Positions 53,886 to 57,266 of a DNA stretch of 64,000 bases are shown piece after piece. The notes beneath the pieces are model-generated. The model searched no databases and was not told the DNA's origin. It worked only from the letters and a program-made list of their open reading frames with translations. The stretch's first letter is position 1. Each line of letters opens with the position of its first letter. The position numbers and the translations under genes are program-made. This DNA is from Halogranum gelatinilyticum (lineage in GTDB: Archaea; Halobacteriota; Halobacteria; Halobacteriales; Haloferacaceae), in assembly GCF_900103715.1 (NCBI RefSeq), contig NZ_FNHL01000001.1, forward strand, positions 310,001 to 374,000, read 5' to 3'.

Positions 53886-54116
53886 ATGAACGTCACCGTC
53901 GAAGTCGTCGGTGAGGAGACCCACGAGGTTTCTGTCCCCCCTGACGGCACCTACGCCGACCTCCTCTCGGCCCTCGACCTCTCGCCGCACGAGGTGTCGG
54001 TCCTCGTCGACGGCCGTCCCGTCCCCGAGGACCAGCCCGTGGAGACGGACCACGTGAAGGTGCTCCGACTCATCAAGGGCGGCGCGCCGTGCCCGCACGA
54101 GGACACTGTCGAGTGA
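53886..54116 (+). CDS. samp2: Ubiquitin-like modifier SAMP2, extended past diglycine
   Basis: A 76-residue beta-grasp protein. [36 protein letters not shown] and [10 protein letters not shown] match SAMP2, which in H. volcanii ends at GG after 66 residues (my recollection). The GG is here at residues 65-66, and [10 protein letters not shown] follows before TGA. SAMP2 is conjugated to lysines and needed for tRNA thiolation; both require a free C-terminal glycine carboxyl, so a protease would have to trim this form. TGA overlaps the ATG of the acetyltransferase gene (TGATG). Confidence 0.88.
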
Positions 54117-54496
54117 TGGCCGAGGGTAGAGAGACCGTCCGCATCAGGGCTGCGACGGCCGACGACCTCGTCGCCGTCATGCGACTGTTCGACGCCGCGG
54201 TCCTCGAAGCCGACGCAGGCGAGGTCGGGGACCGAATCAGTGACGGGAGCGTCCTCGTCGCCGACGCCGACGGCCGCGTCGTCGGCGCGCTCGCGCTCGA
54301 CGGGAGCCACGTCGACGCCGTCGCCGTCCAGAAAGAGCGTCGTGGCCGCGGTATCGGGAGGCGGCTGGTCGAGGCAGCGGCCGACGCCGTCGACGGCGCG
54401 CTCACCGCTGACTTCGACGACAGCGTGCGGCCCTTCTACGACGCGCTCGGTTTCGAGGTCGAACGGCGGGACGGTCGGCTGTGGGGTCGGCTGTAG
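54116..54496 (+). CDS. GNAT-family acetyltransferase
   Basis: A 126-residue enzyme. [19 protein letters not shown] (N-terminal), [22 protein letters not shown] (acetyl-CoA motif A, R/QxxGxG/A) and [15 protein letters not shown] (motif B) are clear. ATG 54116 is within TGATG overlapping samp2, implying translational coupling. A link between acetylation and SAMP2 is suggested by this overlap but not known. Substrate unknown. Confidence 0.9.
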
Positions 54497-56891: not shown

Positions 56892-57149
56892 TCAGCGGTC
56901 GGCGACGGCCGACGACGCAACCAGCTGCTCTTTCTCCCGGCGCGTCAGCTGTTTGATCTCGTACTCGCGGCTCATCGCCCCCGACTTCGAGTCGAACGAC
57001 TCGGTGTGGACCAGTTCGACCGGCGTCCGCCCGCGGGTGTACTTCGCGCCCGTCCCGTCGTTGTGCTCGTCGACGCGTCGCTCGACGTCCGTAGTGTAGC
57101 CGGTGTAGTAGGTGCCGTCGTGACACTCGACGATGTAGACGTAGTGCAC
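56892..57149 (-). CDS. GIY-YIG nuclease-domain protein (UPF0213-like)
   Basis: An 85-residue single-domain protein. [46 protein letters not shown] contains the GIY-like YVY, YTGYT and catalytic Arg/Glu positions (ERR, and [18 protein letters not shown]). Stand-alone GIY-YIG proteins of this size occur widely with unclear roles, possibly in DNA repair. GTG 57149 (MHYVYIVEC) is the family start; an in-frame ATG at 57182 is upstream. Confidence 0.93.
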
Positions 57150-57266
57150 GGCCGGACAACGGGTCCGGGGCCGATAAGGCACCCGGAACCCCCGGCCGTG
57201 ACTGCGGTGGATCAGGTATTGGCTTCGCGTGGTGGTTGTGTCCGTTGCGTTACCTGGCTCAGTTGA

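Follow-up and report, generated by a model that had tools for sequence, protein, structure and literature searches.

SAMP2, a ubiquitin-like protein of haloarchaea, is often encoded with residues beyond its diglycine and is probably made as a precursor

An Extended SAMP2 Gene in Halogranum gelatinilyticum

Like ubiquitin in human cells, archaeal ubiquitin-like proteins (Ubls) seem often to be synthesised in precursor form. Haloarchaeal SAMP2 is usually described as already ending in Gly-Gly. We collected SAMP2 loci from a genome scan, order- and family-level searches and targeted fetches and removed duplicates, which left 284 distinct loci in a sample that is not random: it covers two families densely and other families sparsely. 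SAMP2 stops at Gly-Gly in 169 of these loci and does not in 115: 81 encode 2-24 residues beyond the motif and 34 encode 125-225, as in-frame fusions to whole enzymes. Proteolytic Ubl maturation is therefore probably widespread in haloarchaea, which to our knowledge lack eukaryotic-type deubiquitinases. One of the extended genes lies in the window, the stretch of 64,000 nucleotides of Halogranum gelatinilyticum DNA analysed here, and the best reading of its ten-residue extension is a dispensable pro-peptide that would be removed by the desampylase JAMM1.

The gene (53886-54116, plus strand) encodes a complete SAMP2 and, as the earlier note had claimed and the translation confirms, ten further residues before the stop. 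Residues 1-63 cover the full Pfam profile PF21965 (E=3.2e-33), and the ThiS profile is matched as well (E=1.4e-4). The protein is colinear with Haloferax volcanii SAMP2 in PDB entry 4hrs (E=1.4e-29), and entry 2l32 was also matched. Its beta-grasp core, residues 1-66 (53886-54083, plus strand), ends in LRLIKGG, and the Gly-Gly at residues 65-66 (54078-54083) aligns with the last two residues of 4hrs, where the chain ends. The colinearity and the position of the motif read from the sequence alone are thereby borne out, as is the statement that H. volcanii SAMP2 ends there. The putative cleavage site follows base 54083, and the extension, the presumed pro-peptide, occupies 54084-54113. The TGA stop (54114-54116) shares one base, in the form TGATG, with the start codon (ATG, 54116-54118) of a GNAT acetyltransferase gene (54116-54496, plus strand; PF13508, E=3.4e-12). 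Further downstream, a small open reading frame on the minus strand (56892-57182) resembles, by eye, a GIY-YIG nuclease domain protein.

With two other genus members, which match records of Halogranum rubrum and H. amylolyticum, the genus comparison comprised three species, the window genome included. A sequencing error or frameshift as the source of the extension was rejected, because the reading frame is intact and both congeners carry in-frame tails. Their tails, SASSPDGSESR and RSAHED, are unrelated to that of the window: the SAMP2 cores are 86-91% identical and the GNAT proteins 60-65%, but the tails do not align. Comparison of C-terminal codons among relatives, which the earlier note had put forward as a check, thus gives an extended state common to the genus and a sequence that is not, as expected for a discarded pro-peptide.

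The TGATG overlap with the next gene is present in all three genus members, which could imply that the tail is a selected regulatory element, namely a controlled stop, a metal-binding CPHE motif or a timing device coupled to GNAT translation. Such a role is hardly credible, since tail length and sequence differ completely both within the genus and across genera and since overlap-coupled expression is common in haloarchaea; CPHE as a conserved motif was rejected because it is unconserved within the genus. In haloarchaea, genes that overlap as TGATG or ATGA are coupled by termination and reinitiation (PMC6728339), and the overlap in the window fits ordinary translational coupling of this type. 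The controlled stop or programmed tail function suggested from the overlap is not supported, as the tails are unconserved and scattered: 24 of 71 genus-level groups include extended forms, and comparison of tails within the genus and across these groups gave no indication of a regulated stop at the end of SAMP2. As the stop can be moved only together with the next start, the overlap may also explain why the tail stays in frame up to the GNAT ATG.

Proposed Maturation by JAMM1

The window genome (3.77 Mb, 99.7% complete) contains no second SAMP2, extended or not, as only one match exceeds the Pfam cut-off; two ThiS-family genes lie at other sites. The activating enzyme UbaA requires the carboxylate of a C-terminal glycine. 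The encoded SAMP2 has no free C-terminal glycine, and the mature protein could have one only after cleavage. The genome encodes a UbaA-like E1 (ThiF family, E=9.2e-83; G000:C1:609025-609729) and two JAMM proteins (PF14464), of which JAMM1 (L111) has an intact catalytic motif, HSHPESPAQPSATD, with the pattern HSHP...S..D. JAMM genes were found in 47 of 47 genomes checked and UbaA in 14 of 14, but JAMM also occurs where SAMP2 has no tail and its presence does not discriminate.

A single SAMP2 above the Pfam cut-off was likewise found in all 37 extended or fused genomes checked, and the extended copy must therefore serve UbaA. One genome, G413, has two SAMP2 copies of equal score (C1:3326-3541 and C1:3939603-3939818) near both ends of one contig, which are either a real duplication or an assembly overlap.

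Experimental precedents exist for the cleavage step. JAMM1 of H. volcanii (HvJAMM1) cuts SAMP1-MoaE exactly behind Gly both in vitro and in vivo, a step that activates it (PMC4443979), and it can hydrolyse both kinds of SAMP1-3 linkage, linear and isopeptide (PMC4048286). CsJAMM cuts the SAMP precursors of Caldiarchaeum subterraneum (PMC6043591). No report on cleavage of haloarchaeal pro-SAMP2 was found in the open-licence literature that was searched. The earlier claim that a maturation protease is needed is supported by inference from the sole SAMP2 copy, the UbaA and intact-motif JAMM genes and the HvJAMM1 precedent (PMC4443979).

We consider it likely that pro-SAMP2 is cut by JAMM1 after Gly66 and that a stop codon which is almost free of constraint has drifted, so that neighbouring genes could fuse. 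The window gene would encode a SAMP2 precursor, from which JAMM1, a zinc metalloprotease and the haloarchaeal desampylase, would remove the ten-residue tail to be discarded. The exposed glycine carboxylate would then be adenylated by UbaA for sulfur carriage (tRNA thiolation) and sampylation. Because the protease would act on SAMP2-GG almost whatever follows, the position of the stop codon would be nearly free in haloarchaea. Drift of the stop would produce tails that are short and unconserved, in many cases constrained solely by the overlap that couples translation to the next gene, and its loss, on several occasions, would have joined SAMP2 in frame to an AhpC/TSA peroxiredoxin-like protein or a GNAT. 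We infer here that cleavage takes place, that JAMM1 performs it and that the released enzymes can work alone. If processing by JAMM1 is true, the enzyme has a second, biosynthetic role beside desampylation.

Alternatively, extended SAMP2 might never be processed, having lost its modifier and sulfur-carrier functions or being no more than a solubility or regulatory domain within a fusion. A degraded fusion without Gly-Gly does exist (L133, from a genome that is 72% complete), but all other extended or fused loci keep the motif, no second SAMP2 accompanies the extended gene and UbaA is kept in the genomes checked. We therefore regard the lack of processing as quite improbable.

Residues Following Gly-Gly in Short Tails

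Gly-Gly is kept in all 284 loci, the 34 domain fusions included and L133 left out as degraded, and the residues that follow it vary. Two features of these residues were nevertheless recurrent, both drawn from phylogenetically related sequences. Firstly, tails of one residue are absent from the 284 distinct loci, while tails of two residues occur in 32 loci from 13 genera. The deficit was first noticed in 220 loci and then re-examined in 128 new distinct loci, a few of which repeat species already seen from another collection; this later sample contained no one-residue and 16 two-residue tails. Collapsed to genera, the counts are smaller (13 versus 0), and with equal odds for the two lengths, finding one-residue tails in none of 13 genera would have p ~1e-4, a value that ignores kinship and is indicative only. 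Secondly, 84% of the extended loci (97/115) have Ser, Ala, Thr, Gly or Cys at P1', as against about 50% at P2'-P4', and acidic residues are few. As judged from these sequences, both features point to an endoprotease, and the absence of one-residue tails fits one that would need substrate beyond P1'.

The same tails are short, rich in small residues and probably disordered, and might be trimmed easily by general proteases or a carboxypeptidase instead of JAMM1, with Gly-Gly itself halting the trimming. This seems unlikely, as trimming should tolerate one-residue tails best, which is the length missing from the 284 loci, and it cannot free folded peroxiredoxin or GNAT domains.

Fusions of SAMP2 to Peroxiredoxin and GNAT

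In the long forms SAMP2 runs on in frame into the gene behind it, within a conserved operon of the order SAMP2-(Prx)-GNAT. In unfused genera the same peroxiredoxin (Prx) or GNAT has a gene of its own behind SAMP2, in many cases with an ATGA overlap. A comparative-genomic study of 2010 also places GNAT next to arCOG00535, the SAMP2 family, in Halobacteria (PMC2948915).

Of the 18 distinct Halorussus loci, 17 have an AhpC/TSA peroxiredoxin as the fused partner, as do fusions in genera g14, g16 and g28. Such fusions comprise L013, L016, L017, L023, L027, L030, L039, L115, L117-L122, L128 and L203 in Halorussus, and further L130, L132 and L140-L142. Gly-Gly is intact in these and LRLIKGG is invariant in the 21 Prx fusions aligned, while the linkers vary in length and sequence. 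All 21 members of the fused domain match PF00578, and the fold is backed by Foldseek (PDB probability 1.0, TM up to 0.8 depending on the target). An AlphaFold2 model of a Prx fusion has pLDDT below 50 at residues 63-77, which span Gly-Gly.

The GNAT of the type encoded in the window is joined in frame to SAMP2 in each of the 11 genomes sampled from genus g17 (L168, L175, L192, L193, L196, L200, L215-L218 and L222) and in one g21 species (L364). In an AlphaFold2 model of a GNAT fusion, pLDDT dips to about 62 at Gly-Gly. Both models place the motif in a linker of low confidence, which counts in favour of processing. L364 has an internal Met before the GNAT domain, from which internal initiation of GNAT may be possible.

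The Prx tree needs five changes between the fused and unfused states, four of them forced by well-supported branches; one of the five involves the doubtful L133 and another is a secondary split in Halorussus (L134). SAMP2 was thus joined to Prx on at least two or three occasions, and to GNAT probably on two. In L134 (genome G244) Gly-Gly is followed by Ala-Val and a stop, with Prx in another frame, an apparent reversal of the fusion. L133 (genome G292) is a SAMP2-Prx fusion whose SAMP2 half lacks the C-terminal strand along with Gly-Gly, and is either a degraded gene or an assembly error. Recoding of TGA was considered for candidate fusions flagged with one TGA but is unnecessary: no stop interrupts the L140 fusion, and in L123-L125 and others SAMP2 ends at Gly-Gly and the Prx gene is separate.

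Comparison with Known Ubiquitin-Like Precursors and Fusions

Eukaryotic pro-ubiquitin, ubiquitin-ribosomal protein fusions and SUMO precursors undergo obligatory C-terminal processing after Gly-Gly. The haloarchaeal fusions resemble those of ubiquitin in having cargo proteins joined to the C-terminus, but processing of the eukaryotic precursors is done mainly by cysteine proteases, unlike that proposed here. Many polyubiquitin genes terminate with a single additional residue, which is the very length absent from the 284 SAMP2 loci. A SUMO precursor is also mentioned in PMC12645042.

Among archaea, a close parallel is C. subterraneum, in which the SAMP precursors Csub_C0702 and Csub_C1603 and CsUb-pre are processed by CsJAMM or CsRpn11 (PMC6043591). 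In both groups an archaeal Ubl has residues after Gly-Gly (nine in CsUb-pre), and in haloarchaea it would likewise be cut behind the motif by a JAMM-family protease. Caldiarchaeum belongs to another archaeal lineage and its tails were reported as single cases, whereas in haloarchaea the tail may be absent, varies widely and in some cases gives way to a whole enzyme. The fusions also recall MoaD/SAMP1-MoaE (PMC4443979, PMC8832034), in which a sulfur-carrier beta-grasp protein is joined in frame to a neighbouring enzyme and release by JAMM is known. MoaE is the direct partner of MoaD, however, while here the ThiS/Urm1-like SAMP2 is joined to a peroxiredoxin or a GNAT, and archaeal Ubl-MoaE fusions were found to be restricted to Crenarchaeota (PMC4443979, PMC8832034).

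The available parts of the 2010 study on archaeal Ubls describe an association with the peroxiredoxin 'OcmC' in Thermococcales and MoaD-MoaE and Ubl-Cgi121 fusions, and contain no mention of SAMP2-Prx or SAMP2-GNAT fusions or of SAMP2 tails (PMC2948915). The searchable open-licence literature yielded nothing further on SAMP2-peroxiredoxin fusions or on ubiquitin-like proteins of Halorussus, and as far as it shows, recurrent SAMP2-enzyme fusions are undescribed. A Ubl precursor is ordinary in kind; its extent in haloarchaea is unrecognised and the fusions deserve experiments. The origin of modifier precursors and of modifier-cargo fusions, a long-standing question, becomes directly testable in culturable species.

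Lastly, the fusions may have a meaning of their own. In Halorussus and the other fused genera, SAMP2 and Prx or GNAT could form a latent pair in a strict 1:1 ratio, with JAMM as the control point that frees both, reflecting an old tie between Urm1-type proteins and peroxiredoxins as in yeast Urm1-Ahp1; we regard this as a speculative and rather doubtful possibility. Urmylation of Ahp1 (PMC7016264, PMC12645042) likewise links a sulfur-carrier Ubl to a peroxiredoxin, but the link forms post-translationally, as an isopeptide bond with a lysine in a different type of Prx, whereas the haloarchaeal link is an encoded linear fusion to AhpC/TSA in few genera. The natural fusions allow testing whether SAMP2, peroxiredoxin and GNAT act together. 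The C-x-x-C motif of Prx is present in 15 of the 22 fused members and in 34 of the 41 separate ones, with S..C in five fused members and C..S in one. The loss of one cysteine in several fused Prx domains of Halorussus suggests, from the motif, that their redox chemistry may be altered.
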